From: Actinophytocola xinjiangensis
GTDB taxonomy: Bacteria; Actinomycetota; Actinomycetes; Mycobacteriales; Pseudonocardiaceae
NCBI RefSeq assembly: GCF_001921215.1
Contig: NZ_MSIF01000038.1
Coordinates: 1-60,567 of the forward strand
Length of the DNA: 60,567 nt
Direction: 5' to 3'
The notes under the pieces: model-generated
The model's database searches: none
What the model was told of the DNA's origin: nothing
What the model saw: only the letters and a program-made list of their open reading frames with translations
Program-made: the position numbers and the translations under genes
Part shown: positions 43,846-58,270 of the stretch, one piece after another
Layout: each line of letters begins with the position of its first letter
Position numbering within the stretch: the first letter of the stretch is position 1

Positions 43846-43920
<75 letters not shown>

Positions 43921-43926
43921 CGGTGT

Positions 43927-43973: not shown

Positions 43974-44003
43974 GTTGGTGTGGTTGATCTTTGGTGATCG
44001 TGG

Positions 44004-45377
44004 TCAGGTGTGTGCTTGATCGGGTTTGGGGTGGTTGTGGGGCGTGGCTGCTCCATGTCTGATCTTTCCTCGTCCGGTTGTTGGGGTGTTCGTGCTGGTC
44101 GGGGCCCTTGGGTTGGGTATGTGGGTGGAGGAGCCCGTGATGGTGCTTGCGGGGTGCGTGCCGGTGTCGTGGTCGGGTAGGTGTCGGCGGACGAAGCCGG
44201 TGCGGGGTGTGACCGGTGGTGGTGTGGGGTGTGCGGCGATGGTGTGGCGGGCGTCGAGCCAAGCCTGTTTGAGGGCGGTTTGGATGCGGGCTTCGACTCC
44301 GTTTGCGATGTGGCTGTAGACCTCGACGACGCGTTTGTCCAGGCGATGGCCGAGGCGTCGGGCTTGGGCGATTTCGGGGATGCCGGCGGTGATGAGTCAG
44401 GTTTTGTGGCTGTGTCGTAGCTCGTGGAAGGTAAGGCCTGGCCGGATGGGATGGAGCCGTGTGTGTGGGTTGGGCAGGTGGTGGTTGCCGTCGAATGCGG
44501 GGTTGAAGGTTCGGGTGCGCCAGGTGGAGCGCCAGAGGAACCCGCCGTCGGTGTTGGGGAAGACGGGGGAGTGGTCGTGTGTCTCGAGATGGTGTTTGAG
44601 TAGGACGGCGAGGAAGGCGGGCAGGGTGATGGTGCGGGCGCTGGCGGCGGTTTTGGGTGGGCCGAGCCATTGGCGTCGGGAGCTTTCCTTGAGTGTGCCG
44701 GTGTCGGGGTCGATGACGATGGTGCGGTCGTCGGGGTGGGTATTGTGGCGTTGGAGTGCGGCGAGTTCGCCCCAGCGGCAGCCGGTCCAGGCGGCGGTGA
44801 CGATGAGTAGAGCGCTGCTCTGGTGGTGTAGTTGTGCTGCTTGCAGGGCGCCGCGGAGGACTTCTTCGGGTGTGGCCCAGAGCATTTCGCGGATGATGTG
44901 GTGGGCGCGTTTGCCGCGGTTGCGGTGGTGACGGACGGGGTTGGCGGGGATGAGTTCGTCGTCGACCGCGTCGCCGAGGATTCGGCCGAGAAGGCTGAGT
45001 AGGCCGTGGACGGTGGTGTGTTGGTAGCCGCAGGCGTAGAGGTCGGCGGCCCAGCGCTGGATGTCGCTGCTGCGGATGTCGCCCAGCGTGGTGTGGCCGA
45101 ACCGAGGACGGATGTGTTTGCCGATGAGGTAGGCGTAGTTCTCGACCGTGAGGTCGTCCACGGACAGGGTGTGCCACCAACGGGTGAGCCAGTCATCGAG
45201 AGTCGTCCGTGCCGGCGCCGGGTCGCGAAAGGCTCGGTGCCGGAGGCCGACTTCGATCTCGCGGGCGCGGTGCTGGGCGGCTGTCACGCTGGTGAACCCG
45301 CCTTCCGACGTGACCGATCCGTTGCTGCGGTAACGGACTCGCCAGTGCTCACCACTAGTCCGCTCGATCCACGCCAC
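44004..45377 (-). pseudogene. Tyrosine-type site-specific integrase, interrupted by TGA
   Basis: The GTG at 45377 follows GGAGGT by eight bases. The first 326 codons contain the AP2-like arm domain, the SAM-like core domain and the first catalytic arginine (TAAWTGCRWGELAAL) and HELRH box. Codon 327 (44399-44397) is TGA where relatives have TGG (Trp) in the HSHKTWLI segment. The same frame then continues for 130 codons with the expected LGH and VYSH motifs carrying the last histidine and the tyrosine nucleophile. The protein as read lacks these and should be inactive unless the stop is read through or is a sequencing error. Confidence 0.88.
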
Positions 45378-46000
45378 GACACCCACCTCCACGCAAGACC
45401 AGCCACTATCTCTGTGATCCTCCGACGACGACGAGAACGCAAGCACCCAAGCGGCTGACCGTGATGACACCCGAAAGAGTGACATGGGGCCGGTCTGTTA
45501 GCGGAGCTGTGGTTGGAATGGCGCAGAGGGGATGGTTTTCCTGTGTGCGACAACGGCTGCCTGTCGCCGTGGAAATTCTCATAAATGTAGATCAAGTAGC
45601 GTGCTGACCTGCAGGATCGTGACTCCGGCAGGTCGGTGTACGTTTGTTCAGGCCGGATGAGCGCATCGGCGGCGGCAAGGACCATGGTGGACCCAGGGGC
45701 GGCGATGTCGTCGAGGGTGTCGTACTGAGCTTCAGGCATCAATTGCGCGGGTCGTCGAGTAGTAATCAGGTCGAGGTGTGGGTGTCGTCGTGGGGGTGGA
45801 GAAACGGGGGGAGCAGTAGCATGGCGGGCCCCGGCGGTACAGGGCCGCCGGGCGGCCGGTGGTGGCCACCCGGAAGTCCCCGGTGGGTTCGAGGAATCCG
45901 TCCGTGCGTGTCAGTTTCCGCCGGAAGTTGCTGGGTCGAGGCCGAAATCCCAGATCACCTCGTAGACCCGGCGAACGGCCCACTCCTCCCTTCCGTCCGC
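45378..46000. other. Island region without a recognised gene
   Basis: The gap upstream of the integrase contains no ORF with a recognisable product. A plus-strand frame running from 45644 into the HINT remnant is open but its first ~115 residues are low-complexity Gly/Trp/Pro-rich and look non-coding. Confidence 0.4.
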
Positions 46001-46389
46001 ACCGCCATTGCCTACAACCTCACCGTCGACGACATCCACACGTACTATGTACTGGCCGGTAGCGCGCCGATCCTTGTTCACAACAGTGGATGTTCGCCGT
46101 TTACTGATGGAGGAATCTGGGATGGTTCGTTTGACGTCGGTGGTCAGAATATTGAAACCATGGCGACGGTCAGGATGGTGGGGGATACTGTGCATCTTGA
46201 CGGGCTGATAGTATTTGCGAAAGGGGCGCAAGGGCTTAATCAAGAACCAGTCGGATCTGATGCGATTCGGCAAATCAAGCGTCCGATTCCGGAGCAGGCA
46301 AGAAATCAAGGATTTAAGACTGTCGTGCTAATTATGAGCACCATATTCCGAAGGTGAATGGCACCGGCTACACGCGTTATCCCGGGTAG
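46001..46389 (+). pseudogene. C-terminal remnant of a HINT-domain polymorphic toxin
   Basis: Residues encoded from 46001 read TAIAYNLTVDDIHTYYVLAG and then APILVHNSG, the C-terminal signature of a pretoxin-HINT (intein-like) domain with its His-Asn cleavage site. About 85 residues of a toxin domain follow. The frame ends early at 46357; a single missing T near 46345 would restore a tail reading EHHIPKVNGTGYTRYPG and ending at 46389, directly against the next ATG. The large N-terminal part of the toxin is missing. The toxin class is not recognised. Confidence 0.7.
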
Positions 46390-46428
46390 ATGACGCTCGA
46401 TGTTTCCAAATTCTGGGAGAGTGGAAGT

Positions 46429-46668
46429 ATGGATCGGATTCGCTTGGATAGATTGATATCAAGCATGGCGGATCGTCCGAAAAATGAACCGGAGATAGTG
46501 TTTCGAGAGCTGCGTGAACTAGGTTTGTCGCCAATTGAAACAATATATGCTGCCGCAGGTGTTCTTGATATGACGTTGCCTGAGGCTAAAAGCGCGATCT
46601 ACGAGAGTTCTGCATGGCGCGATCACCGGGAAGATTGGTATCGATTTCAGTCCGGGTTTAATGAGTGA
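46429..46668 (+). CDS. Small protein, probable immunity partner of the HINT toxin remnant
   Basis: The 79-aa protein starts at the ATG at 46429 after a purine-rich stretch; an ATG at 46390 would add 13 residues. It is acidic and helical, and its DNA is clearly less GC-rich than the backbone. It lies directly after the toxin tail, the normal position of an immunity gene. The family is not recognised. Confidence 0.55.
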   Translation: MDRIRLDRLISSMADRPKNEPEIVFRELRELGLSPIETIYAAAGVLDMTLPEAKSAIYESSAWRDHREDWYRFQSGFNE

Positions 46669-47232
46669 GGCAGTGTCATTCGATGGTGGGATCTCAGCGG
46701 GTCAGACCTCATCTTTCGTTTAGCGATCTACCAACGGGTCTACGCCCAGCTGGGCGCCAAGTTGCGCCGTGAACTGGTCGCGCCACGGTCCGGCCGCGCG
46801 GTGTGGCACGGACCCAGGCCAGCGCTCGCTCCGCATAGGCGGGACCTCGCGATCGTCCGTCGTCAACACCTCGACCTGAGTTGCGGCCGTTGGTGGTGCT
46901 CGCCGGTTTCCAGCAGCGGGACGTGCGACCGCGCCGCCCGAGCCCGCTGCTGATCGCCTGTGCGTCGAGCCAGGGCAGCCGGCCGACGGTGGACGGCTCG
47001 GGCGTCGGGGCGCAGCGACCCGTCCGCCTGCGCCGCGCGCCATACGCGCGGATGAGGTCGGTGACCCGCGTTCGTCGCCGGGGACGGTCACGATGCGTTG
47101 GGGTGCGGGTGGTCGTGCCGCAAGCTCGCGACGGCGTTGCCGAGGTGATCGCGGCTAGGCAGGGCTCCAACGAGTGCACGAACACCTCAGGCGACGAGCC
47201 ACGAGCACTCACTACCTCCGCTGGCACCTTCC
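46669..47232. other. Island region without a recognised gene
   Basis: Frames are open on both strands here, but the encoded sequences are Arg/Pro/Thr-rich with no motif I recognise. The segment is bounded by an immunity-like gene and a transposase fragment and is probably decayed DNA. Confidence 0.4.
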
Positions 47233-47600
47233 CTAGCTGTGCTGCTGTTGTTGGTCGTTGACAGGTTGGGTGTGGGGTTGGGTCTTCTGTAGCAGCCTCT
47301 CATAAGGTGTCTGACCGGCGAGGCTGCCGTGGGGGCGGTGGTAGTTGTAGTAGTCCTCCCATTCCTTGAGTTTGTCGTTGAAGACGGCGAGGTCGCCTTG
47401 GACGACGCCGTCGAGGAGGCGGTAGAACTCTTCGGAGTCGATCTGGTGGGAGCGTTCTACTTTGCCGTTGAGCCGCGGTGTGGCGGGCCGGATGTAGACG
47501 TGGCCGATGCCCTGGTCCAGGACGTGCCAGTGGAAGGTGGACTGGAACTCCGCACCGTTGTCGGTCTGGATCTTCTCGACCACTCCAAGCGAGGGCTACC
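47233..47600 (-). pseudogene. IS481-type transposase, C-terminal fragment
   Basis: The minus-strand frame (116 residues from 47583) encodes the end of an rve/DDE integrase core: IQTDNGAEF with the second catalytic Asp, then PRLNGKVERSH with the final Glu and the YYNYHRPHGSLAGQTPYE tail typical of IS481/IS3-like elements. The N-terminal half with the helix-turn-helix and first Asp is absent. The fragment lies directly upstream of another immunity-like gene and the truncation point is about 47590-47600. Confidence 0.82.
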
Positions 47601-47668
47601 TTGGTTCGGTGGCAGGCGACTGAATGTTAAAGTCAGGCATTGGGACCTTTGGTCTGGGAAGTAGATGT

Positions 47669-48073
47669 ATGGAACAGAATGCAGGCGAGCTTTATCGCAG
47701 CCTTGTTGAAATCCTGGAGAGGTGCGCTTCGGCGAAAGAGATGGAGGTATCGACTTTTCAAGTCGAAGGCGATGCTGCACTGTCCGCGAAATCCGCCGCT
47801 GCTTACGGCGATGTGGTCAACATCCGACTGAATGAGGCCACCATTCTGTTGGACATAAATGACTCTGATGCCGTCGAGTTTGATGCCGATGATCCGGATG
47901 ACGAAACAATGATCCTCGAGACAGTAAAGGGGTTCTGCGAGAAAACCCTAGAGTTGCACGTTGGTCATGACGATCACGCATGTTTCGGCTGGCGGAACTC
48001 TGGAAGAGAAGTACGCGTCTCGGAGCCCATGTTTCGCAAGCGGTCCTCGAGAATCTGGAGGAGGGTGCGATAA
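47669..48073 (+). CDS. Immunity-like acidic protein of unknown family
   Basis: The 134-aa product starts MEQNAGELYRSLVEIL. The first ~110 residues are acidic with alternating strands and helices (DVVNIRLNEATILLDIND) and resemble small immunity proteins in composition. The last ~25 residues become Arg-rich, which suggests a frame change near 47990. AT content is higher than in the backbone. There is no clear ribosome site. Confidence 0.5.
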   Translation: MEQNAGELYRSLVEILERCASAKEMEVSTFQVEGDAALSAKSAAAYGDVVNIRLNEATILLDINDSDAVEFDADDPDDETMILETVKGFCEKTLELHVGHDDHACFGWRNSGREVRVSEPMFRKRSSRIWRRVR

Positions 48074-48589
48074 TACCCGCCACGATGCCGCTCCGTAACG
48101 CGCCGCTAGAGGTCACAGTGTTCGGTGCCGGGCTTACCCTCATCGACAACGCGCCGACGACGTTACGGCCGCTGGGTCTTGGCGGCGGCTCTCATGGTGA
48201 TCATCAAGCCATCTCACCTTCGGCGCCGTCCAAGTCGAACAGGCGGTCAGTTGCGTGTGCTCGACGGTGGTGTCAACCTTCGGGGCCGCGGCCAGCGGTC
48301 CAGGCGTTTCGGGACAACCTGAGTGAGAGGTTCCCCAAGCTGAGGATGTCTCAGACGTTCGCCGTTCAGCAGGCCGTCCGTATGGCGGGCCCGGAAGAAG
48401 GCCTGGGTCTCGGTTTTCTCGGGCTGTCGCTTCTGGATGGTCTGGAGCTGGATTGCATGAGGTTGCCGAGTCATAAGATGATCGTCCTGTCGTCGCGCTC
48501 GGCTGAGGCGCGGGCAGTGTGCTGGTCGAGCTCCGGCACGAAGGAACACCTGGCAGCGGGGGAGAAGTGTTCGCCGCAGGGGGAGAACG
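48074..48589 (+). other. Decayed region with a flavin-monooxygenase-like scrap
   Basis: Around 48107-48180 the plus strand reads VTVFGAGLTLIDNAPTTL, which looks like an internally deleted piece of the N-terminus of an FAD-dependent monooxygenase (usually VTVFERA...GAGLTL). Nothing else in this stretch forms a recognisable product. Confidence 0.35.
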
Positions 48590-49162
48590 ATGGCCAACGA
48601 TCCTCTGAATCTCGACGAGTCGGGCGAGTGGGCTGGCCTGTGGTGGCTGCCGGACAACACTGACGAGCAGGTCCCGGGAGTGCTCCGGTACGACCTTGAG
48701 GGTGGCCTCTCGCTCTCTCTGATCGGCGCCTTCGAGGACCGCATCACGTCGACCCCTGCTCGGGGGGTGACGATGTATCACGAGGGCACCAGGACGTGGG
48801 ACGTCATTCACGGCGTAGCCGAGCAGCGCGAGATCACCCTTCTAGGCTGTGCTCCCAAGAGCGTGAAGCGGACGATGTTCGCGCGGGTGAAGAGCCCTGA
48901 CAAGCAGACCGTGGCGTCCATCACCGCGATCATCGGTGCGCACGTGAGCGGCGACGACCGCGCGATCAGCGCAGCGCCGGCCTTCAGCGTCCTCGACGGC
49001 GGCCAACTGCGCGCCCGTGAGTGGCTGGGCGTAGGCGCCCGGCTCGGCCGGCGCCTTCGGCGGGATGCCCGGCGAGGCCCTGCGAAGTGTCGGTCACGGT
49101 GCACCGTAGGTCAGGTGTCCACACCTGCCAGGTCGGCCACCACGAATGCCCTCTGCTTGTGA
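48590..49162 (+). pseudogene. Truncated ApeA-like antiphage protein (N-terminal domain only)
   Basis: GGGGGA lies five bases before the ATG. The first ~145 residues match the pattern of the ApeA N-terminal domain: WAGLWWLPDN, VPGVLRYDLEGGLSLSLIGAF, then WDVIHGVAEQREITLLG and ARVKSPDKQTV. ApeA proteins normally continue for several hundred residues to a C-terminal HEPN ribonuclease that causes abortive infection. Here the frame runs into Arg-rich unrelated sequence after ~49040 and stops at 49162, so the effector is gone. Confidence 0.7.
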
Positions 49163-49311
49163 GGGTGAGGGGTGTGGGCTAAACGCGTCGGCGACCAGTC
49201 GCCGAGCAGGGCGGATAGTTTGGCGGGCGGCAGCTTGTCCGTGCACTGCCGTAACTCGTCGGCTGGCCACCAGCGGCGTTCGAAGCTAACGGTGTTAGCC
49301 CGTCAGAGGTT
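49111..49311 (-). pseudogene. C-terminal fragment of an unidentified protein
   Basis: The minus strand is open from an upstream TGA to the stop at 49113-49111 and reads FERRWWPADELRQ and later PTRLAHTPHPHKQRAFVVADLAG, which looks like a genuine protein end. There is no start codon or upstream part. It marks the junction where the ApeA-like gene was cut. A 6-bp inverted repeat (GCTAAC at 49285-49290, GTTAGC at 49294-49299) lies in it. Confidence 0.35.
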
Positions 49312-49408
49312 GTGGTTACGCGTCATCTGACACAGAGTCCGACGGCCGGGCGGGCCATCATGGCCTGAGTTCCACGGTGCTTGGGCGTTCTCCCGACGGA
49401 GGATCGAT

Positions 49409-50791
49409 ATGGCTGACGCTGGTCACTTCGCGGTTCACCACACCATGGTTCTGGTCGACGTCGAGGGGTTTGGGGCCTCGTCGCGCACCCTGCCCCACCA
49501 GGTGCGCACGCGGGCGGGGCTGTATGCGATGGTGGCCGAGGCGTTGGCCGCCGCCGGGGTGCCCTGGGACGAGTGCTACCACGAGGACCGGGGCGACAGC
49601 GTGTTCGTGCTCGTGCCGCCGAGGTTTCCGAAGGCTCCGATGGTGGAGGAGTTGCCTGGGGCGCTGGCACGTGCGGCGCGTGGGCATAACGCCACCAGTC
49701 ACAGCGCGGCCGCGACCCGACTGCGCCTGGCGATCCACGCCGGCGAGGTCGCCTTCGACGATCACGGTGTCACGTCCACCGCGCTGACAACGGCCTTCCG
49801 GCTGCTCGACGCCGAGCCGTTGAAGCAGGCGCTGGTTCGATCGCCTGGCGTCGTGGGAATGATCGTGTCCCGACTGATTTTCGACGATGTCGTGCGGCAC
49901 AGCGCAAGGGTGGATCTGGCCACGTTCCGGCCGGTTGACGTGACCGTGAAGGAGGTCCACGACCGTGCGTGGATCGCCCTGCCCGACTGCCCGTACCCAC
50001 CCGATTCTGACAGCCTCGACATTGCGGAATCGGGCGACCCGGCTGTGCTTTCGGAGCCGCTGACCGCCCCCATCCCTCTCCCTGTGGGCATGCCGGCCGT
50101 CCATCAGGGCAATGTCGGACAGGCGGGGCGCTACCACCCCGTGAATGTCAGTGGCGGCAGCGGGCGCCTGTCGATTCGCGGAGCCGATTTCGCCGGGGGA
50201 AACATCGATAAGCGCCGCAACATCCGCATCGGCACCGGCGGCCTGGTCTGGTTGGTCATAGCCGCCGTGGTCCTGTTGGGTGGCGCGACCGGGGCGGTGG
50301 TCGCCGCCAGCAGCGGCCCTCCGGATCCGACCACGATCGGCACGGAGCGCGGTGCGGCTGGTGCTCAGGAAACCGCCGAAGCGGTACTGGATGCGTTCGC
50401 GGACCGGGACGTCGAACAGCTGTGTGGCCTGATGTCCGACGAGAGCAAAATGGAATTCGAGGATGCCATCCCCTCGGGGACATGGACATTTGGTAAATGT
50501 GATCAAGGAATGGATCGATGGCTCGATGAGTTGTATGGGGAAAATCCGGATCTGGAAGAATGGATCCAGAGTCTGGCAGTGGAGGATATCGAGCTAAGCG
50601 ACCTTGTGGGCGAGGAGTCAGGCGAGGTCAGGGAGGACAGTGCCGCAGAGATCAAGATAGTCAGCGCCATCCCCGGCGTCATCAACGAACAATGTCGGAT
50701 CGAGGAACTCGACCTGAATCGAGAGAACGGTCGCTGGGTGGCGGATATCATGAGTTTCTCATCTGTCGGATGCTCCGGGCTCGAGCGATGA
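49409..50791 (+). CDS. Membrane-anchored nucleotide-cyclase-like protein
   Basis: GGAGGA lies five bases before the ATG. The 460-aa protein has a cytoplasmic class III cyclase-like domain (residues ~12-195) with DVEGFG (17-22) and EDRGDSVF (59-66), where the two metal-binding aspartates would be, and an IHAGEVAFDDHGVTSTAL segment. A linker follows, then one membrane helix (278-300) and a C-terminal outside domain resembling DUF4878/NTF2-like lipoprotein-type domains. Actinobacterial proteins of this type occur near caspase and NTPase conflict genes. Whether it makes a cyclic nucleotide is unknown. It is the largest complete plus-strand gene of the island. Confidence 0.7.
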   Translation: MADAGHFAVHHTMVLVDVEGFGASSRTLPHQVRTRAGLYAMVAEALAAAGVPWDECYHEDRGDSVFVLVPPRFPKAPMVEELPGALARAARGHNATSHSAAATRLRLAIHAGEVAFDDHGVTSTALTTAFRLLDAEPLKQALVRSPGVVGMIVSRLIFDDVVRHSARVDLATFRPVDVTVKEVHDRAWIALPDCPYPPDSDSLDIAESGDPAVLSEPLTAPIPLPVGMPAVHQGNVGQAGRYHPVNVSGGSGRLSIRGADFAGGNIDKRRNIRIGTGGLVWLVIAAVVLLGGATGAVVAASSGPPDPTTIGTERGAAGAQETAEAVLDAFADRDVEQLCGLMSDESKMEFEDAIPSGTWTFGKCDQGMDRWLDELYGENPDLEEWIQSLAVEDIELSDLVGEESGEVREDSAAEIKIVSAIPGVINEQCRIEELDLNRENGRWVADIMSFSSVGCSGLER

Positions 50792-51269
50792 CCAGCGGCG
50801 ATCCGTGCGAGAAAGTGGGTATGGGTGCGCCGGAGGACCTCGGTGATGTCGACGGTCCACTGGTTGACGTAGTCGTACACGGTCGGCCCGCCGTGTAGCT
50901 CTGATATAGGGTGATCGTGTCGTCGTTTGTCAGGTCGTTCTCGCGGGCACCGGATGGTGGCGGGTTCGCAGCGTCCGGTCGCGCAGGACCACAAGCGTGG
51001 CGGCGGCCAGCGCGGCGGCTACGGCGATCGTGATGCGAAGGTGGCTCGTCCGTCTTCGGGCGGCAGGCCGGTGCGACTGGCGAGCAACACGTGGGTCCAG
51101 GTCTGCCCGCTCTTGGGCTGCTCGTACAGCTGTTCAGCACGGCCTGCAACGGCGTGCGTCAGGTCGTCTGCTGCCGCCAACACCGGGCCTCCGGATCGGC
51201 GCTGGTTGAAGTTCGATTCGTGCATGTTGGTTTGTGGTCACCTCGGCGCACTTTTGACAAAATGACCGG
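50792..51269. other. Island region without a supported gene
   Basis: A minus-strand frame (51225-51019, 68 aa, starting MHESNFNQRRSGGPVLAAADD) looks more protein-like than its neighbours but is short and has no ribosome site. A minus-strand segment near 50800-50890 reads VYDYVNQWTVDITEVLRR out of context. TTGACA occurs at 51254-51259. No gene is claimed. Confidence 0.35.
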
Positions 51270-51281
51270 GTGGTTGGAAGC

Positions 51282-51761
51282 GTGACGGAACCTGGTCGGT
51301 TTCGGGATCGGCGGGAGCGTAAGTACGGGTATGATTTCGTCGACGAGGTGCTGGTGGTCTGCCCTCACTGCGATGGCTGTGCGGTTGTCGCGCCGTGCCC
51401 CGAGAGGTCGAGCGTCCGACGGCGCCTGCGCTGCGCGGCGTGTGGTTACGCCAAGGACAAGACGGTCAACTCCGTCGTTGTTGGCGGCCCGGTCGATCCC
51501 TGGTTCCGACGGCCGGTCTGGTTACGGGCGACATGTCGAGGACATGTGTTGTGGGCGTACAACGGCCGCCACCTCGACCTGCTGAAGTCGTACGTGGCGG
51601 CCCGGTTGCGTGAGCGCGGCAGGATGGAACCCGGAGCGCCGCAGAGCTTGGTCGAACGACTACCTACCTGGCTCAAGACTGCGAAGAACCGCGACGAGAT
51701 CCTGCGAACGATCAGACGCCTGCGGTGCGCCATCCCGTCGTCACCGCCGCCACCGACGTGA
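51282..51761 (+). CDS. Zinc-ribbon protein (TFIIB-type)
   Basis: The GTG at 51282 gives 159 aa; the GTG at 51270 adds four residues. Four cysteines in CPHCDGC and CAACGY spacing form a zinc ribbon at the N-terminal end (CPHC ... CAAC). The later WFRRPVWLRATCRGHVLWAYNGRHLDLL and WLKTAKNRDEILRTIRRLR segments are seen in a family of actinobacterial small zinc-ribbon proteins of unknown role, often near mobile or defence genes. It converges on the caspase operon. Confidence 0.65.
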   Translation: MTEPGRFRDRRERKYGYDFVDEVLVVCPHCDGCAVVAPCPERSSVRRRLRCAACGYAKDKTVNSVVVGGPVDPWFRRPVWLRATCRGHVLWAYNGRHLDLLKSYVAARLRERGRMEPGAPQSLVERLPTWLKTAKNRDEILRTIRRLRCAIPSSPPPPT

Positions 51762-51781
51762 CATCGGCTGGTCTGTACCGG

Positions 51782-52225
51782 TCAGCGTCGGACGCGGCGT
51801 TCGTGGAAATCTTCTGCGGTGTCGAGGATGTGGTCGATGGTGGCGGCGACACGGGCATCCGTGTTGGTCAGGTGGCGCACGATCGCCGCGCCGGCGTTGG
51901 ACAGTGCGGCGGGTGGCGGCTGGAAAGTCCGGAAGAGCGGTGGGAACCCGTAGATCTCGCGCAGGATTTCCTCGATCACGAACTCGTTGACCGGCCGTCG
52001 CTCACGGCGGTGCGCGGTCGCGACCTGTTTGCTGAACCTGGCGATGTCGTTGATGTCGCTGGGGTTGGCCAGTCGTGGTCCGACGAGCACTGCGGTCACG
52101 GAGACGAGGAATCCGTTGAAGGCGATTCTGTCTTCCGGTGAGAGGGCGTCGTTGAGTGCCTTCGTCCGGCGGTCCTTGAGGACGAGGCATCTGATCTGGT
52201 CACGAAACCGCGGTTCCACTGGCAC
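51782..52225 (-). CDS. Conserved-looking protein of unknown function, last gene of the caspase operon
   Basis: AGGAGG lies five bases before the GTG. The 147-aa protein is mainly helical with regularly placed Arg/Leu/Ala, a segment AVLVGPRLANPSDINDIARFSKQV and a short Pro-rich turn (FQPPPAALS). I do not recognise the family. It follows the 92-aa gene by nine bases and should be co-transcribed with it. Confidence 0.65.
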   Translation of the reverse strand: MPVEPRFRDQIRCLVLKDRRTKALNDALSPEDRIAFNGFLVSVTAVLVGPRLANPSDINDIARFSKQVATAHRRERRPVNEFVIEEILREIYGFPPLFRTFQPPPAALSNAGAAIVRHLTNTDARVAATIDHILDTAEDFHERRVRR

Positions 52226-52234
52226 GGTGGCCTC

Positions 52235-52513
52235 CTATTCGAGGTGGGTGAAACTCATCAGGACGTCGAGCACCGCATCCTCGAACGATTCGTGGCGGCG
52301 GCCGACCTCGTCCACACGGAGAAGTCCGGTGTTTCGGACGACGGCGAAGGCCGACCACAGGCCGAGGTGGTGTTCCGCCCAGCCGGCGTGGAAGGTCTCC
52401 GCGTTCTCCTCGCAGACCACGTCCACCTTGTCCTCGCCGAGCCTTGGTCGTAGCGAGAACCGATGACGTTCGAGGGATTGGCGGAGTTCCGGGCTGACGT
52501 CGGGGGTCGTCAT
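52235..52513 (-). CDS. Small protein of unknown function in the caspase operon
   Basis: The 92-aa protein starts at an ATG that overlaps the caspase stop (ATGA), so synthesis is coupled to the protease. It is acidic in parts (GEDKVDVVCEENAETFHAGWAEHH) and contains one cysteine. A regulator, substrate or inhibitor of the protease would fit this position, but nothing in the sequence proves it. Confidence 0.65.
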   Translation of the reverse strand: MTTPDVSPELRQSLERHRFSLRPRLGEDKVDVVCEENAETFHAGWAEHHLGLWSAFAVVRNTGLLRVDEVGRRHESFEDAVLDVLMSFTHLE

Positions 52514-54069
52514 GGTGCTCTCCTGGGGTGTGGTTGGGTCACCTCGTTGCTCGGTGTCGTGCGGGGGAGTCCGGCTGCGTGGTCGCGGAGCTTCCCCGGG
52601 CCGGCGGCGTTGTAGTAGTCGCGCGCCGCGCGCGCCAGAGTGGCCTTGGGGGGCCGTTGGGCGAGGAAGTCGATGAGGACGCGCTCCTGCTCTGGGGTGG
52701 TGAGGGTGGACCACTCGCCGTGCGGACCGCCGCAGGCGTCGAGGAGGACGTCGAGGCACTGAGCGGTTGCCAGCGCTGTACTGCCATCCCAGTCGGCCAG
52801 CCAGCCTTGGCGTGACGTCTCGGCGGTGGGGCGGGGGCGTGTGGGCGCCGACTCTTTCTCGTGGCGCACGGTCTCGGGGTCCGTGGAGGCGATCCCGAGG
52901 CGGATGCGTTGCCGTAGTCCTGCCAGTAGTTCCTTGGCGGCGCCGTTGCCTCGGCGCGCGGCGAGGTCATACCAGAACACGGCCTGGCGCGGATCCTTGT
53001 ATCGCTGCTCGTAGAGCTGTCCGAGGTGTAGCGGACCGACGGGGTCGCCGGCCTCCGAGGCCTTCGTGTACCAGTGCGTGGCTTCCAGGAGGGCTTTCCC
53101 GGTAATCGGCCCTGGCTCGACACCCTGCATCCTGGCCTGGATTCGGCCCTCGGCGATCTGCCCGAGCCGGTTCATCGAAGGAGCGTGACCGGCTTCGGCT
53201 GCCGCGCGGTACGTCGCGGTGATCATCGGCAGTCTCTCGATTCCGTCTCTGGTCTCCTGGCGGTAGGCCTCCTGGAAGACGGTGTTCAGGTCGGTGGCGG
53301 GCCCGGTCGGGAGGTCGGGGGAGTTGTTGTTGGCGAACACCCAGTTGGCCGCGTGATCCTCGATGCGTCGGCCAGGCTCGGGTCTGCCGTCCTCGATCAG
53401 TCGGTCGGCGACCACGGTGAAGATGTGGTCGAAGGTGAGTTGGGTGGGTGCGCCGGGGATGCCCTCGCGCACCGTTTGGACAAGGGCCTTGGTGAAGCAG
53501 GTCTGTGCGTCAGCGACCGTCTCCGGCTCGTGCCAGGAGGTCTCGAACGCGCTGCTGCTCATCAACACGTAGGCACCGGACACCGGGGGCAGACGGCTGG
53601 CGGACAGACGGCCGTACTCCTCGGTGGCGAGTCCCGCGTAGCAACAGTCGAGCACCGCGATCTTGACGGTGGCCTTGCTGGCACGGAACGCGTCCCGCAC
53701 GGCCTCGAACGGCAGGCCCGTGGCAGCGACGTAGTTCGTATCGGTCCGGGTGTCGCCCACGGTGAGGTGCAACCGTTCGCGGTGATCGTAGATCCCGTGT
53801 CCGACGTAGTAGAAGAACAGGACGTCGGTGGCTTCGAGGAACGTGTCGATGAGTTCGACGCGGATCTTGTCGAGGGTGGGACGGTTGGCGAACAGCCTGA
53901 TGGCGGAGTCGTCGTTCGGCCATGGGCCGCACACGGGGTCATGGAGCAGGTCCAGCATCCGGTGGAAGCTGCGGTTGACCGCGGGAACCTGGTCGAAGTC
54001 CTGGTATTCCCATGTGCCCATGAGGACCGCACGTGACCGGGAAAAGTCCCGGTGCGCCAGGTCAGTCAT
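52510..54069 (-). CDS. Caspase-like (peptidase C14) protein with Sel1-like repeats
   Basis: The 519-aa protein has a caspase/metacaspase fold in residues 1-~250. YYVGHG carries the catalytic His91 and AVLDCCYAG carries the catalytic cysteine (C143), each at the end of a hydrophobic strand. Residues ~300-380 contain Sel1/TPR-like helical repeats (MNRLGQIAEG, ATHWYTKASEAGDP, AVFWYDLAARRGNGAAKEL). The C-terminal ~130 residues are helical and unknown. The start overlaps the EACC1-like gene by 8 nt. Such proteases act as death effectors or processing enzymes in bacterial conflict systems. Confidence 0.85.
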   Translation of the reverse strand: MTDLAHRDFSRSRAVLMGTWEYQDFDQVPAVNRSFHRMLDLLHDPVCGPWPNDDSAIRLFANRPTLDKIRVELIDTFLEATDVLFFYYVGHGIYDHRERLHLTVGDTRTDTNYVAATGLPFEAVRDAFRASKATVKIAVLDCCYAGLATEEYGRLSASRLPPVSGAYVLMSSSAFETSWHEPETVADAQTCFTKALVQTVREGIPGAPTQLTFDHIFTVVADRLIEDGRPEPGRRIEDHAANWVFANNNSPDLPTGPATDLNTVFQEAYRQETRDGIERLPMITATYRAAAEAGHAPSMNRLGQIAEGRIQARMQGVEPGPITGKALLEATHWYTKASEAGDPVGPLHLGQLYEQRYKDPRQAVFWYDLAARRGNGAAKELLAGLRQRIRLGIASTDPETVRHEKESAPTRPRPTAETSRQGWLADWDGSTALATAQCLDVLLDACGGPHGEWSTLTTPEQERVLIDFLAQRPPKATLARAARDYYNAAGPGKLRDHAAGLPRTTPSNEVTQPHPRRAP

Positions 54070-54433
54070 CGCCGATCAGACGCTGGGTGATCTCCAGGAC
54101 TTCCTCGGGGTCAGGGAGGTTGGTGCCGTCGACGGTCACCGACCGGTCGCCTCGGGTGATCGTCACGGTGACCGACGAGCGCCGGGACCGGATGAATGCC
54201 GGCAGAGTCCGGATGACGAGGCTGAGCACCGCTGCGGACGGCACGAGCAGTTGTAGGACCTCGGCGCCGCCGAGTTCGTCGTCTTCGGGGCGGGCGTGTT
54301 GCCTGGTGACGGTGGCCTCGGGGATGGTGGTGAGGCGGCGGAACAGCGGACCGACGTCGGCCAGCTCGGAGACCGTCACCGTGCAGGCGTACGGCACGCG
54401 GGCGGCACCCTGGTCGGGAAGCGGTTCAGGCAT
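54062..54433 (-). CDS. EACC1-like effector-associated small protein
   Basis: The 123-aa protein has a C-terminal half LLVPSAAVLSLVIRTLPAFI followed by RRSSVTVTITRGDRSVTVDG and a final helix, the pattern of the effector-associated constant component (EACC1) found beside caspases and trypsin-like proteases in actinobacterial conflict systems. The hydrophobic helix may insert in or touch the membrane. It follows the 70-aa gene by two bases and overlaps the caspase gene. Confidence 0.7.
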   Translation of the reverse strand: MPEPLPDQGAARVPYACTVTVSELADVGPLFRRLTTIPEATVTRQHARPEDDELGGAEVLQLLVPSAAVLSLVIRTLPAFIRSRRSSVTVTITRGDRSVTVDGTNLPDPEEVLEITQRLIGDD

Positions 54434-54435
54434 GG

Positions 54436-54648
54436 TCAGATCTCCACCCGTCGGTTCACGTTGTAGTAGAGCGTGATGTCTTCGGGAGCGTGCAGGCGAT
54501 AGTCCTCGCCGTCGACGCTGACCACGCAGACCCAGTGGGGCGGAGCTGAGTCGGGCGCGGCGAGAATGAAGGGACCCTGTCCGTTGATACCCCACACGGT
54601 GGCGCCCAGGCCCACGGTGTGACCGTCCTTGGTGCGGTAGGTAGCCAT
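54436..54648 (-). CDS. 70-aa protein of unknown function, first gene of the caspase operon
   Basis: The ATG at 54648 is chosen; upstream frame sequence (to 54705) is unlike protein and crosses a palindrome. The product is rich in strands (TVGLGATVWGING, HWVCVVSVDGEDYRLH) and has no cysteine pair or membrane segment. Function unknown. Its promoter region holds an inverted repeat abutting the start codon, so it may be where the operon is controlled. Confidence 0.6.
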   Translation of the reverse strand: MATYRTKDGHTVGLGATVWGINGQGPFILAAPDSAPPHWVCVVSVDGEDYRLHAPEDITLYYNVNRRVEI

Positions 54649-54661
54649 ACGACAAGTCGTA
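54648..54661. promoter_or_regulatory. Palindrome at the start of the caspase operon
   Basis: TACGAC (54648-54653) and GTCGTA (54656-54661) form a 6-bp inverted repeat with a 2-nt centre that abuts the ATG of the first gene. It is placed to act as an operator on a short-leader or leaderless mRNA. Confidence 0.45.
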
Positions 54662-54796
54662 CCACGGGCTTGGGGGCACGGGGGTGGTTGGCACATGGAG
54701 GCCATGCGGTCACGATGGTTCGGCCGGGGAGAAACACGGAAAATATTCGGCTGTGGGCGATCAAGTGTGGATGAAGGAGAAGGAGAAAATCGGGAG

Positions 54797-54825
54797 AGTT
54801 CACTATGCTGTTGGTGACGTGAACT
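54797..54825. repeat. Inverted repeat near attR
   Basis: AGTTCAC (54797-54803) and GTGAACT (54819-54825) form a perfect 7-bp inverted repeat with a 15-nt spacer in the non-coding DNA before attR. It could be a site for an excision or regulatory protein. Confidence 0.4.
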
Positions 54826-54852: not shown

Positions 54853-54962
54853 TTTACGCAGGGGATTCTCTATTTCCGCAGGTCAGGGGATTGTGATAAC
54901 GACGCTGGGGGTCAAGGGGTCGCAGGTTCAAATCCTGTCAGCCCGACGGTCGTTTACGCAGG
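54853..54962 (+). repeat. Direct repeats flanking attR (candidate integrase arm sites)
   Basis: TTTACGCAGG at 54853-54862, TTTCCGCAGG at 54873-54882 and TTTACGCAGG at 54953-54962 lie 20 and 80 bp apart around the attR core. The second and third continue with TCAGG. A related TTTCGCCAGGTCAG occurs just inside attL at 43948-43961. Confidence 0.5.
54905..54947 (+). repeat. attR: 43-bp direct repeat of the tRNA-Pro 3' half
   Basis: This copy is identical to 43878-43920 but lacks the 5' half of the tRNA, so it is the far end of the island and not a tRNA gene. Confidence 0.95.
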
Positions 54963-54999
54963 TCAGGCCCTGTTCGCAGTTCAGCGGACAGGGCCTGAC
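54962..54999 (+). terminator. Strong hairpin after attR, probably the original tRNA-Pro terminator
   Basis: GTCAGGCCCTGT (54962-54973) and ACAGGGCCTGAC (54988-54999) pair perfectly over 12 bp around a 14-nt loop. Before the island entered, this hairpin would have stood directly after tRNA-Pro. Confidence 0.65.
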
Positions 55000-55050
55000 G
55001 CGTCTCCGAGTGACTAACTGAGTGACTATGCGATGCCAGTTGGGTCCGGC

Positions 55051-55599
55051 CTAGTAGAGGCGGGGAGCCTGCCCCTTGAAGGGCTGTGGTTGTATCTGGC
55101 GGGGCTCATCGACACACCATTGATGCCCGGCGGCATCGCTCCAGCGCAGCCGCCATGCCGTCAGTGCCAGAGGCGGAGGTGTCGGGGTGCTCACCTTCAT
55201 CATGAAGTAGCGCTTTGGCTCTGCTGGTTCTCCGGGTTGAACGATCTCAGATTGGACCGCCCAGCTTGGTTGCTTGTCCACTGCTGTGCCCGACGGCCAC
55301 ACCTCCGCGTGGACGTCGAAGATGGGTTGTTCGCTGTAGTTCGTGAAGTAGATCATCAGTTCGTATTGGTATCCATTTTCATCATGTCCAACCTCTCTGA
55401 CGCCAGTGCCGCCGACTCGAACCATGCGGGCTTCGCGCCACGACTTCTCCGAGTCCGCTCGCGTCTGTCGTCGACGATCCGAAAGCGCGATCCATAGGGC
55501 AACAGCGACCGCTGCTGCGGTGAACACTGCGCCGACTGCTTGCCCGATGGCCGCAATCCAGTCGGCTGCCGTAGCTTCGTCGGCAAGGCTGATTAGCAT
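55051..55599 (-). CDS. Membrane-anchored protein of unknown function
   Basis: The ATG at 55599 gives 182 aa beginning MLISLADEATAADWIAAIGQ. One hydrophobic segment (about residues 14-36) is followed by a basic stop-transfer (DRRRQTR) and a soluble strand-rich domain (YQYELMIYFTNYSEQPIFDVHAEVWP). Small membrane proteins of this shape are common in actinobacterial accessory DNA and some accompany defence genes. The family is not recognised. Confidence 0.65.
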   Translation of the reverse strand: MLISLADEATAADWIAAIGQAVGAVFTAAAVAVALWIALSDRRRQTRADSEKSWREARMVRVGGTGVREVGHDENGYQYELMIYFTNYSEQPIFDVHAEVWPSGTAVDKQPSWAVQSEIVQPGEPAEPKRYFMMKVSTPTPPPLALTAWRLRWSDAAGHQWCVDEPRQIQPQPFKGQAPRLY

Positions 55600-55711
55600 G
55601 GTGAACAGTGTCGACTCTCGGGCATGGTGGCGGTGAACGACGCGCGCTGTGGCTGGCAACATTCTTGCAACGCGAGGTAACGGAGTGTCGTTCAGTTTCG
55701 ATGGAACGTCC

Positions 55712-56227
55712 ATGAGTGACCCGTGGGCTATAGTGAAGCACTTTGTGCGCTGTTACTACTGCAAAAAGGCGGTAAACGCGACTGAGGCAGGTGTTGTGCA
55801 TGATGACGGTCCACGTACCTTCATTCCGGAAAGGACCACCCTGGTATCATGTGACGAATGCGGGGGTCCGCTTGTCTTTAGGCAATATCAAGCTGATGGA
55901 GATGCCTGGGATGACATGGACAGGGTTTGGCCAGGAGCGCCTAGGAGGCTTAGCTGGTCGATACCTAAAGAGTTGAGGCAAGAGCACGCGGAGGCCACTA
56001 AATGCTTGGAGGCGAATGCCTTCACGGCGGTCGTGGTTATGGTTCGTAGAACCTTGGAAGGCGTGGCGGCTCTTCATGGAATAGCGGAGCGAAATCTAAT
56101 GAAATCGCTCGCGATGATGCAGGATAGTGGAGCGCTTGATCCGCGCCTCGTTGAGTGGTCGAAAGCGCTTCGTGTTCTTGGGAATGAGGGAGCTCGAGAA
56201 TATCAAGAGGAACTGGGATCCGGGTGA
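55712..56227 (+). pseudogene. DUF4145 domain protein, 3' end replaced
   Basis: The frame starts MSDPWAIVKHFVRCYYCKK with paired cysteines (CYYC and CDEC) and the DUF4145 helices IPKELRQEHAEATKCLEANAFTAVVVMVRRTLEGVAALHG...LMKSLAMM and ALRVLGNEGA. Family members go on with a His-containing tail after GNEGA. Here the frame meets toxin-like sequence at about 56197 and stops after a short unrelated peptide. Recombination or deletion has therefore fused two accessory genes. DUF4145 is often found in restriction and defence contexts. Confidence 0.65.
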
Positions 56228-56433
56228 TCTCGATGACGATGGCTATCATGCGTCGCGAGGAAATCAGGCAGAGAACAAGGAATTCAGGGGATGCGCTGCA
56301 CGAGGTCGAACGAAGCATTGGTCGGGAGATAACGCCCGCAGAGCGTCGATCCCTGCATGATAGAGTCACTAGGCAGGGGTACGACTATCACCGAATCGTG
56401 GAAGAGGGAAAGGGGTTGTTCGGTGGCTGTTGA
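56180..56433 (+). pseudogene. C-terminal domain of a polymorphic toxin, frameshifted
   Basis: In one frame the DNA reads DPGDLDDDGYHASRGNQAENKEF and, after a one-base shift in the GGGG run at about 56286-56289, continues DALHEVERSIGREITPAERRSLHD and GYDYHRIVEEGKGLFGGC. Together these make one continuous domain like C-terminal toxin modules of Rhs/WXG-type polymorphic toxins, with the usual LHD...GYDYH...IVEEG pattern. The upstream carrier is missing and the extra G breaks the frame. Confidence 0.6.
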
Positions 56434-56881
56434 CGATCAGATGGCTGAGACCCGAGGACTCCTCCAGGGTGCGAAAGTTCACTCTGTCGGCAGGGCTGCA
56501 GGCATGGGTGTGGTTGAGTTTGCTGGGCTTCGTGGTGACGTGATCGGTTTACACATGCAGTGTCCTTTTCGGATCTTGCAGGAAGGGCAGGTGATTCTGG
56601 GGTCTCGCGACATGAGGTATCCGCAACGGGGAGCGGGTTCGGAAGCATTTGAACAGTTCGGGACCGTATATGATTCGCGGGCTGCGAAGTTGAATGGGAT
56701 CTTCGAGCGGCTTCGGCCGGTCGTGTCGGAGGTGACCTTCGGTGACTCCGGACATCTCGCTGTGGGTTGGGAACCTCGTTTTCGGATTGAGGTCTTTCCT
56801 GACTGTTCCGGCAGCATGGAAGCTTGGAGAGTTTTTCGGCGGGGAGGTCCTCACTGCGGGTTTCCTCAGGGCGTCATCTGA
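56423..56881 (+). CDS. Immunity-like protein (DUF6188-like)
   Basis: The GTG at 56423 overlaps the toxin tail stop; an ATG at 56441 is an alternative. The 152-aa product has the pattern GLLQGAKVHSVGRAAGM, LHMQCPFRIL, VTFGDSGHLAV and RIEVFPDCSGSMEAWRVFR, similar to a family of actinobacterial small proteins found after polymorphic toxins. The position supports an immunity role. It appears intact. Confidence 0.6.
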   Translation: MAVDDQMAETRGLLQGAKVHSVGRAAGMGVVEFAGLRGDVIGLHMQCPFRILQEGQVILGSRDMRYPQRGAGSEAFEQFGTVYDSRAAKLNGIFERLRPVVSEVTFGDSGHLAVGWEPRFRIEVFPDCSGSMEAWRVFRRGGPHCGFPQGVI

Positions 56882-57154
56882 GCTGAGGGCTGGAGGATTC
56901 ATTCGAGCTGAATTCTCCAGTCTGGATACTGTCTCGAGCAGGGATTCATCCGGTTGTGTCCCCGGCCGGCGACTCGGAATGGCTGGCGGAAATCTCGTAG
57001 CCCATCGCCACCAAAGACGGCCGATTCGGAAGACTGCCCGAGACGGGAGGGTCCATGACAAACTCAGTGACCGCTACGGGGTTCCGATTGATGAATACAA
57101 AAACACATTCGATTATCGTCAAGATCTAGATTTTCGGATTCTGAGAAGGCAGAG

Positions 57155-57535
57155 ATGGATTATCCAGAATATTTCAGTGTAGCGCACAGGTCACCTGCGG
57201 CTCTCGGTTTGGATGGATCATTTGTGACTGCTGCCGCGTTCGTTTCAGGTTGCGATGTGGGTAGTTCATGGCGGCTTTTGGATGGTTCTCGAGAGTGGCT
57301 TGTGCTTGAACTCGGCAGGGGTCTGAACTTGGGATGGCAGCCTCTTGTGCTTCTCAATGTAATGCCTAGTGGATTCCGAAAATCTTCGACCGCCAAACTT
57401 GATAGCGAGGAGAATGCGATAGCCATCGATGGACTCTTTCGTTTGCTGAGGACGTTCTGGGAGGTTCGAAATGTGCATGGCCTGGAGTGGATTCAGGTTC
57501 GCTATGCGGCTCTGAGTGAGGAGCTCAGCCGGTAA
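57155..57535 (+). CDS. Small protein, possibly an orphan immunity protein
   Basis: The 126-aa protein starts MDYPEYFSVAHRS after AAGGCAGAG. It is mixed alpha/beta with Trp-rich strands (WRLLDGSREWLVLELG, LNLGWQPLVLLNV). Base composition is below the backbone GC. Upstream DNA (57040-57150) reads VHDKLSDRYGVPIDEYKN in one frame, possibly another toxin scrap. The family is not recognised. Confidence 0.5.
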   Translation: MDYPEYFSVAHRSPAALGLDGSFVTAAAFVSGCDVGSSWRLLDGSREWLVLELGRGLNLGWQPLVLLNVMPSGFRKSSTAKLDSEENAIAIDGLFRLLRTFWEVRNVHGLEWIQVRYAALSEELSR

Positions 57536-57614
57536 GCGTTCTCCATGGTTGTTCGTTGTGGCAGGTGCGTTTCTCGGTAACGGAACGGTCGCGGTGAGGC
57601 GGTCGAGAGTGGCC

Positions 57615-57799
57615 TTAGAGCGTGTTTGAGATCTTGGTCGGTGTGGCCGGTTGATCTTGGTGGCGGGTTCGGCCAGGTGTGGTGGATGGCGCGTGAGCAG
57701 CGGTACCCGTCGGATCTGACTGATGCGGGGTGGGCGGTGGTGGAGCCGTTGCCGCCTGCTCCGGCCAGTCAAGGAATCAGACGATGGGTAAGGCACTGA
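57615..57799 (+). pseudogene. IS5-type transposase, N-terminal stub with possible IS end
   Basis: The ATG at 57686 starts AREQRYPSDLTDAGWAVVEPL, the well-known N-terminus of IS5/IS112-like transposases. After about 27 residues the sequence changes and stops at 57799. GAGCGTGTTTGAG at about 57618 resembles the terminal inverted repeat of such elements. The rest of the IS was lost in the rearrangement that also cut the next gene. Confidence 0.7.
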
Positions 57800-57951
57800 G
57801 CGGTGACCGGTTGCGGGCGAAGTGGGACAAGTACGCGCCGCGGTATGGCCGCGACATTGGGTTCTTCGAGCGGGTGCAGTTCGGCGGCGGCCGGGAGTCG
57901 GTTTGTTCGCAGGCACACAGGGACAGCGGCAGCGGGCGGCGGGTTTGGTAG
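57784..57951 (+). pseudogene. Class I methyltransferase, N-terminal fragment
   Basis: The ATG at 57784 begins a frame with KWDKYAPRYGRDIGFFERV and FGGGRESVCSQA, the N-terminus of a UbiE/MenG-like SAM-dependent methyltransferase. The frame stops at 57951 without motif I; the next part of the gene lies inverted just downstream. Confidence 0.6.
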
Positions 57952-57954
57952 TCG

Positions 57955-58160
57955 CCGAGCATCGCCTCGCGCAAGTCGATCTCGCGACCCAGTTCGGCCG
58001 CCCGAGGCCGGGCGTGCTCCAGCACGGCCGGACTGAAGTCGGTCCCGGTCAACCGCACGCCGTCCGGGTAGAACGCCAGGTTGCGGCCGTGCCCACCGCC
58101 ACCTCGAGAACGTAGTTGTCGAGAATGCGTTGCCGCAGAAGGGCTTGCTCGGCCGTCCTG
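57955..58160 (-). pseudogene. Class I methyltransferase, inverted middle fragment
   Basis: On the minus strand the DNA reads LEVAVGT, then after a one-base deletion GRNLAFYPDGVRLTGTDFSPAVLEHAR and RAAELGREIDLREA: SAM-binding motif I and the acidic loop of the same kind of methyltransferase whose N-terminus lies on the plus strand at 57784. An inversion plus a frameshift has destroyed the gene. Confidence 0.6.
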
Positions 58161-58270
58161 GGCGGGACGACCGCAAGGTTCTGCGCGGCACGGGCAGGCT
58201 GTGCCGCGACACAACAACGGCACCGTGGCTGACGCGGCACGAGCCATGCAGGGACTTGACTGTCCAGCTC

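Follow-up and report, generated by a model that had tools for sequence, protein, structure and literature searches.

The stretch of DNA analysed here (hereafter the window; 60,567 nt of Actinophytocola xinjiangensis, GCF_001921215.1, NZ_MSIF01000038.1 positions 1 to 60,567, forward strand) carries five touching genes on its minus strand at 51782-54648, encoding p70, EACC1, a caspase-Sel1 protein, p92 and p147 (Table 1). Successive genes from p70 to p147 are spaced by +2, -8, -4 and +9 bases, which confirms the initial annotation in describing five minus-strand genes joined by overlaps or by gaps of at most nine bases; the upstream end that it gave, 54661, had to be corrected, as it falls within a promoter-like motif, 13 bases ahead of the p70 start codon (ATG, 54648). 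A crude codon-usage caller covered 100% of 51782-54648, compared with 56% of 44000-51780, 15% of 54960-58200 and 89-96% of the first 43 kb. Throughout, we compare eight operons, namely the window's own, six from Streptomyces and one from G185, a genome of another genus in the window's family; the full five-gene form is present in seven of them.

Table 1. Features of the operon and of the island around it (window coordinates)
Feature	Position	Strand	Basis
tRNA-Pro(GGG); its 3' part, 43878-43920, is the left att-like repeat	43846..43921	+	ARAGORN
Tyrosine-recombinase (integrase) gene, premature in-frame stop	44397..45392	-	phrog_1 integrase, E 7.5e-47; frame reading
p147, 147 aa, probably helical, hydrophobic stretch at 34-52, unnamed family	51782..52225	-	8/8 operons
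p92, 92 aa, alpha-beta5-alpha, unnamed family	52235..52513	-	8/8 operons; AlphaFold2
Caspase (residues 12-225), Sel1 repeats (about 287-400) and conserved C-terminal segment, 519 aa	52510..54069	-	NF047832, PF00656
EACC1 (Effector Associated Constant Component 1), 123 aa	54062..54433	-	PF19953
p70, 70 aa, unnamed family	54436..54648	-	7/8 operons
Promoter-like motif GTGGTACGACT, 6 bases before the p70 ATG	54655..54665	-
Right att-like repeat, 43 bp identical to the tRNA-Pro 3' part	54905..54947	+	blastn 43/43

The two core proteins both score above curated family cut-offs, in agreement with the EACC1-caspase system proposed in the initial annotation. EACC1 matched PF19953 at 67.1 bits (E 1.6e-18, cut-off 23.6; the L054 copy reached 69.2 bits), and the caspase matched PF00656 at 33 bits (cut-off 21.4) and the NCBIfam model NF047832, 'caspase, EACC1-associated type', at 179.8 bits (cut-off 140). 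The PADLOC 'caspase' model PDLC02987 aligned to residues 59-171 only (E 2.9e-05, 21.5 bits), a generic match, and EACC1 matched no PADLOC model. His91 (YYVGHG) and Cys143 (DCCYAG) of the caspase are kept, as the earlier reading had it, and the pair is conserved in all eight operons; across 16 other caspases, His aligned in every row and Cys in 15, the exception being an Ala in L084. The Sel1 model PF08238 stayed below its cut-off in the single protein (20.4 bits against 30.7), and a profile built from eight caspase sequences reached solved Sel1 proteins (PDB sequences) at E 2.6e-16. The EACC1 and caspase genes overlap by exactly 8 bp in all eight operons. The best 19-residue hydropathy of EACC1 is 1.86-2.12 in the eight operons versus 1.38-2.12 in other EACC1 proteins, and the hydrophobic segment lacks glycine in all eight, compared with at least one glycine in each of ten other EACC1 segments. 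The same genome encodes a second, distant EACC1-caspase pair (27% identity) on contig C16 (G000:C16; L050:8075-9538), followed 2 bases on by a gene that by eye resembles one for a solute-binding protein.

The initial annotation had proposed checking whether the small genes co-occur with the caspase elsewhere, and largely they do; neither outcome that it had named as refuting, a lack of co-occurrence or a loss of the catalytic residues in close relatives, came about. In the window's family, of which 249 genomes were sampled, p147 matched strongly in the window, G185 and G161, p92 in the window and G185, and p70 twice in the window's genome. G185 encodes EACC1, caspase, p92 and p147 in this order at 59-67% identity; a profile search of its operon for p70 found none. 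A tyrosine recombinase gene (PF00589; L047:7285-8469) converges on p147 there, 22 bases away. A scan of one genome per species for 84,980 species, which used two short conserved p147 peptides and thus finds close relatives (G185 and G161 were not listed by it), returned seven loci, all in Streptomyces. In six of these, all five genes follow one another as in the window; L055, the seventh, has only p147. This nearly full-length solo copy (L055:10013-10432) and another of the same lineage with an unlike N-terminus (L048:9752-10147) are both located downstream of a tRNA-Arg(CCG), at about 0.6-1.1 kb, in genomes of different families; no att duplication was found beside either. Taking the best 13-20 candidates per Streptomyces genome, strong matches to p92 (295 genomes) and p70 (286) came from G297 and G422 only, both with the operon, and strong matches to p147 (286) from these two, with a broken remnant in G451 in addition. 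G297 is the centre of the Streptomyces sample and holds L051, and G422's contig of 4244 bases is apparently the one of L053. On those best 13-20 candidates, the cassette is rare, occurring in 2 of 286-295 sampled Streptomyces genomes, one of them the sample centre.

Beyond these operons, no profile match to p70, p92 or p147 at E under 0.5 was found beside 16 other related caspase loci (15 plus L050, out of 79 related matches besides the window's own). EACC1 was detected beside 11 of the 16, ten times by a narrow profile at E under 0.5 and in L050 by PF19953, and Sel1 is also present in two (L077 and L081). Searches of PLSDB plasmids (p147, p70), INPHARED phages (p147) and IMG/VR (caspase) returned no match. 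Several candidates were dropped: for p147, those in G208, G042 and G004 (E 0.002-0.009) and in G321, G551, G368, G417 and contig 1 of G451 (E 0.0007-0.009, partial matches in long proteins); for p92, those in G012, G183 and G236 (E 0.003-0.005) and in G453, G463, G500 and G593 (E 0.002-0.005); and for p70, that in G282 (E 0.0036).

In a tree of 24 caspases, the eight operon copies form one clade (100/100) on a long stem. Because the G185 caspase is nested in a well-supported group of Streptomyces copies (99/97), the unit was probably transferred between families; support is weak (82/79) for the basal position of the window's caspase. Across the seven full operons, the pairwise protein distances of each gene correlate with those of the others (r 0.55-0.95; 1 to 111 of 5040 permutations reached as high a value). 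Compared with the other operons, each of the five window genes has a dN/dS within 0.18-0.53. The p92-p147 gap is 9-12 bases in seven of eight operons and 54 in L057. At codons identical in all other operons, the window shows 14 non-synonymous and 28 synonymous private changes, against an expectation of 77% non-synonymous in the absence of constraint (p 1.7e-9); the counts for single genes are low (non-synonymous/synonymous: p70 0/3, EACC1 2/2, caspase 7/11, p92 2/5, p147 3/7). This pattern clearly argues for purifying selection on the window copy since the split, as a branch average in which very recent decay would not show. These data bear on whether the two-gene EACC1-caspase core is the whole system, with p70, p92 and p147 as co-transcribed passengers without a functional link: p70 is absent in G185, and p147 stands alone in L048 and L055 and is broken in G451, all of which would suit such a reading. 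Passengers would drift away, however, and p92 and p147 are present in all eight operons of the clade across two families (p147 being the gene by which the operons were located), and both have low dN/dS and distances that correlate, so that we regard mere co-transcription as improbable.

The perfect 43-base repeat of the tRNA-Pro 3' part places the operon just inside the right att-like end of an island of about 11 kb, whose G+C content is 0.56-0.68 per kb compared with 0.66-0.77 in the preceding 43 kb; the operon occupies the right end of this island, some 260 bases separating p70 from the repeat. Only part of the island has decayed: its integrase gene is broken, its IS481-type transposase is reduced to a C-terminal fragment (the last third), and a 460-aa ORF at 49409-50791 (+) is open with coding-like codon usage. 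The product of this ORF has one strong hydrophobic segment at 282-300 and no family above cut-off. The initial annotation had seen selective survival of the operon within a graveyard, and this holds in part, favoured by purifying selection on the window branch and by the broken integrase and opposed by the 460-aa gene, which is also open. Just outside the right att-like end, a DUF4145 gene (55649-56227, +) lies in a stretch lower in G+C and with little coding density.

A relic of the same island end is present on contig C25 of the same genome, comprising an att-like 3' tRNA piece, p70, EACC1 residues 2-52 and a 72-bp caspase scrap. The p70 DNA is 98% identical (209/213) between the window (54436-54648) and C25 (39393-39605; L049:9394-9606), whereas the flanking 5' part of EACC1 (134/158) and the leader (89/122) are 73-85% identical, a contrast that points to recent gene conversion or recombination confined to p70. 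A non-coding block of 49 bases about 120 bases upstream of p70 (54770-54818) is identical to C25 at 48 positions, between divergent stretches; it contains the inverted arms AGTTCAC and GTGAACT (by eye) and is possibly an operator. The position of the operon beside the right att-like end, and the relic of this end with p70 elsewhere in the genome, are what one would expect of a maintenance (addiction) module that stabilises its carrier island. Against this, the operon persists despite the broken integrase of the island, and around the six Streptomyces operons no integrase was seen in the flanks (by eye) and no tRNA-end motif within 4 kb (the L053 and L051 flanks being short), which leaves addiction very unlikely in our estimate. 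Transposase-like genes lie 6-9 kb from the operon in the L052 flank. With the island's integrase broken, the system, as its cargo, is probably now a fixed part of the genome.

The promoter-like motif GTGGTACGACT, or a near form of it, recurs in the window, in the C25 relic and in all six Streptomyces operons, each time 5-6 bases ahead of the p70 start codon; two of the Streptomyces copies read GTGGTAGGACT and one (L057) reads GTGTTACGACT. From the spacing between motif and ATG, we infer a leaderless p70 transcript. The pattern GTGGTASGACT-N(3-8)-ATG gave nine matches in seven genomes, six of them before p70 (one being the C25 relic), and the reversed pattern, used as a control, gave none. Because the remaining three fall elsewhere, two in an orthologous lipase-like coding region and one before a TetR-like gene (by eye), we dropped the reading of the motif as marking a regulon.

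No model in Pfam, NCBIfam, PHROGs or PADLOC matched p70, p92 or p147, in line with the earlier remark that they belong to no family that could be named. p70 is 71-81% identical to its counterparts in the six Streptomyces operons. Structure prediction, suggested in the initial annotation, succeeded for p92 and failed for p147: AlphaFold2 gave p92 a confident fold (mean pLDDT 87.1; helix, five strands, helix), for which PDB and BFVD held no convincing relative, and gave p147 predicted helices in an unreliable model (mean pLDDT 44.2). The best hydropathy of p147 is 1.5-2.4 across ten sequences.

Weaker Streptomyces relatives were found for p92 (E 5e-5 to 0.001) and p70 (E 3e-7 to 2e-6), and the five examined, three of p92 (L071:5654-6199, L072:5915-6217, L073:5721-6038) and two of p70 (L102 and L103, both 1483-1713), had no adjoining caspase in the flanking DNA inspected. 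They represent small unnamed families used outside the caspase operon. Two of the p92 relatives adjoin genes that by eye resemble SARP regulators. Such relatives away from caspases would fit a protease with a role in regulation instead of immunity (for instance in development, stress response or protein quality control), with p92 and p70 as ordinary small regulators, as would the different chromosomal places of the cassette and the lack of an evident defence neighbour in the Streptomyces loci (by eye, from crude gene calls). The cassette is nevertheless rare, patchy, moved between families and partly decayed, which better fits accessory conflict genes, and we consider a regulatory role a serious but unlikely alternative.

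The closest described system is the two-gene EACC1 'System 4' (Kaur et al. 2020; PMC7159879), in which EACC1 is predicted to sense at the membrane and to activate the caspase, whose trigger-induced self-cleavage is proposed to release a C-terminal effector; such pairs occur in 671 organisms and are widespread in multicellular actinobacteria, with a function that is predicted only (PMC7159879). The operon shares with System 4 its actinobacterial setting, a 5' EACC1 gene and a 3' gene encoding an N-terminal caspase and a variable C-terminal module (PMC7159879), here Sel1 repeats with a conserved segment in the effector position; its caspase is of the EACC1-associated type and keeps His and Cys. 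It departs from the two-gene organisation in having five genes (four in G185), the text section on System 4 describing no further ones, and its EACC1 lacks the glycine patch, one of the grounds for the membrane-sensor idea (PMC7159879). Since the extra genes extend the core without core loss, we class the operon as a variant of System 4 and not as a plain member. The EACC2-caspase and TRADD-N systems likewise pair a caspase with a constant domain and end in a variable C-terminus, but there a single protein carries both EACC2 and the caspase (PMC8195603), unlike the separate EACC1 gene here. We did not find the five-gene form in print within the open-licence literature, a scope that leaves out most subscription journals. 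On the evidence of sequence comparison, the five genes form one conserved, transferable operon, a variant of a predicted EACC1-caspase system.

Taking these lines together, we lean, with somewhat better than even confidence, towards an enlarged, horizontally spread EACC1-caspase conflict cassette in which the caspase acts on a partner and the outcome is arrest or death; an immunity or suicide role is what we infer. One transcript, probably leaderless, would yield all five proteins. EACC1, tightly coupled in translation to the caspase, would keep it inactive at or near the membrane until it senses a trigger, most likely phage or other invading DNA, and the active caspase would then cut a target presented on its own Sel1 scaffold, leading to arrest or death of the hyphal compartment. 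We think of the caspase as acting on a separate partner because a Sel1 scaffold is unlikely to be a killer in itself and three small proteins are constant. The target would most likely be p147, with p92 and the dispensable p70 as regulators or adaptors: it stands out among the three small proteins in that no relative of it turned up beyond the operons, two solo copies of the same lineage and one broken remnant. This choice is a guess from the pattern of occurrence, and the solo copies in L048 and L055 count against it. The conflict reading as a whole has further points against it, namely the rarity of the cassette in the sampled genomes, the lack of matches in the plasmid, phage and viral collections searched, and the glycine-free segment of EACC1. 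A more elaborate version, in which p147 is a dedicated killer with one hydrophobic helix, silenced by p92 and freed by caspase cleavage to make a self-contained suicide cassette, seems to us improbable; if true, it would give bacteria a counterpart of caspase-activated pore formers and add a protein family not previously described.

The operon defines three small protein families unnamed in the four libraries searched. As a compact 2.9-kb unit with three constant partners, it offers concrete regulator and substrate candidates, through which the EACC1-caspase prediction becomes testable.
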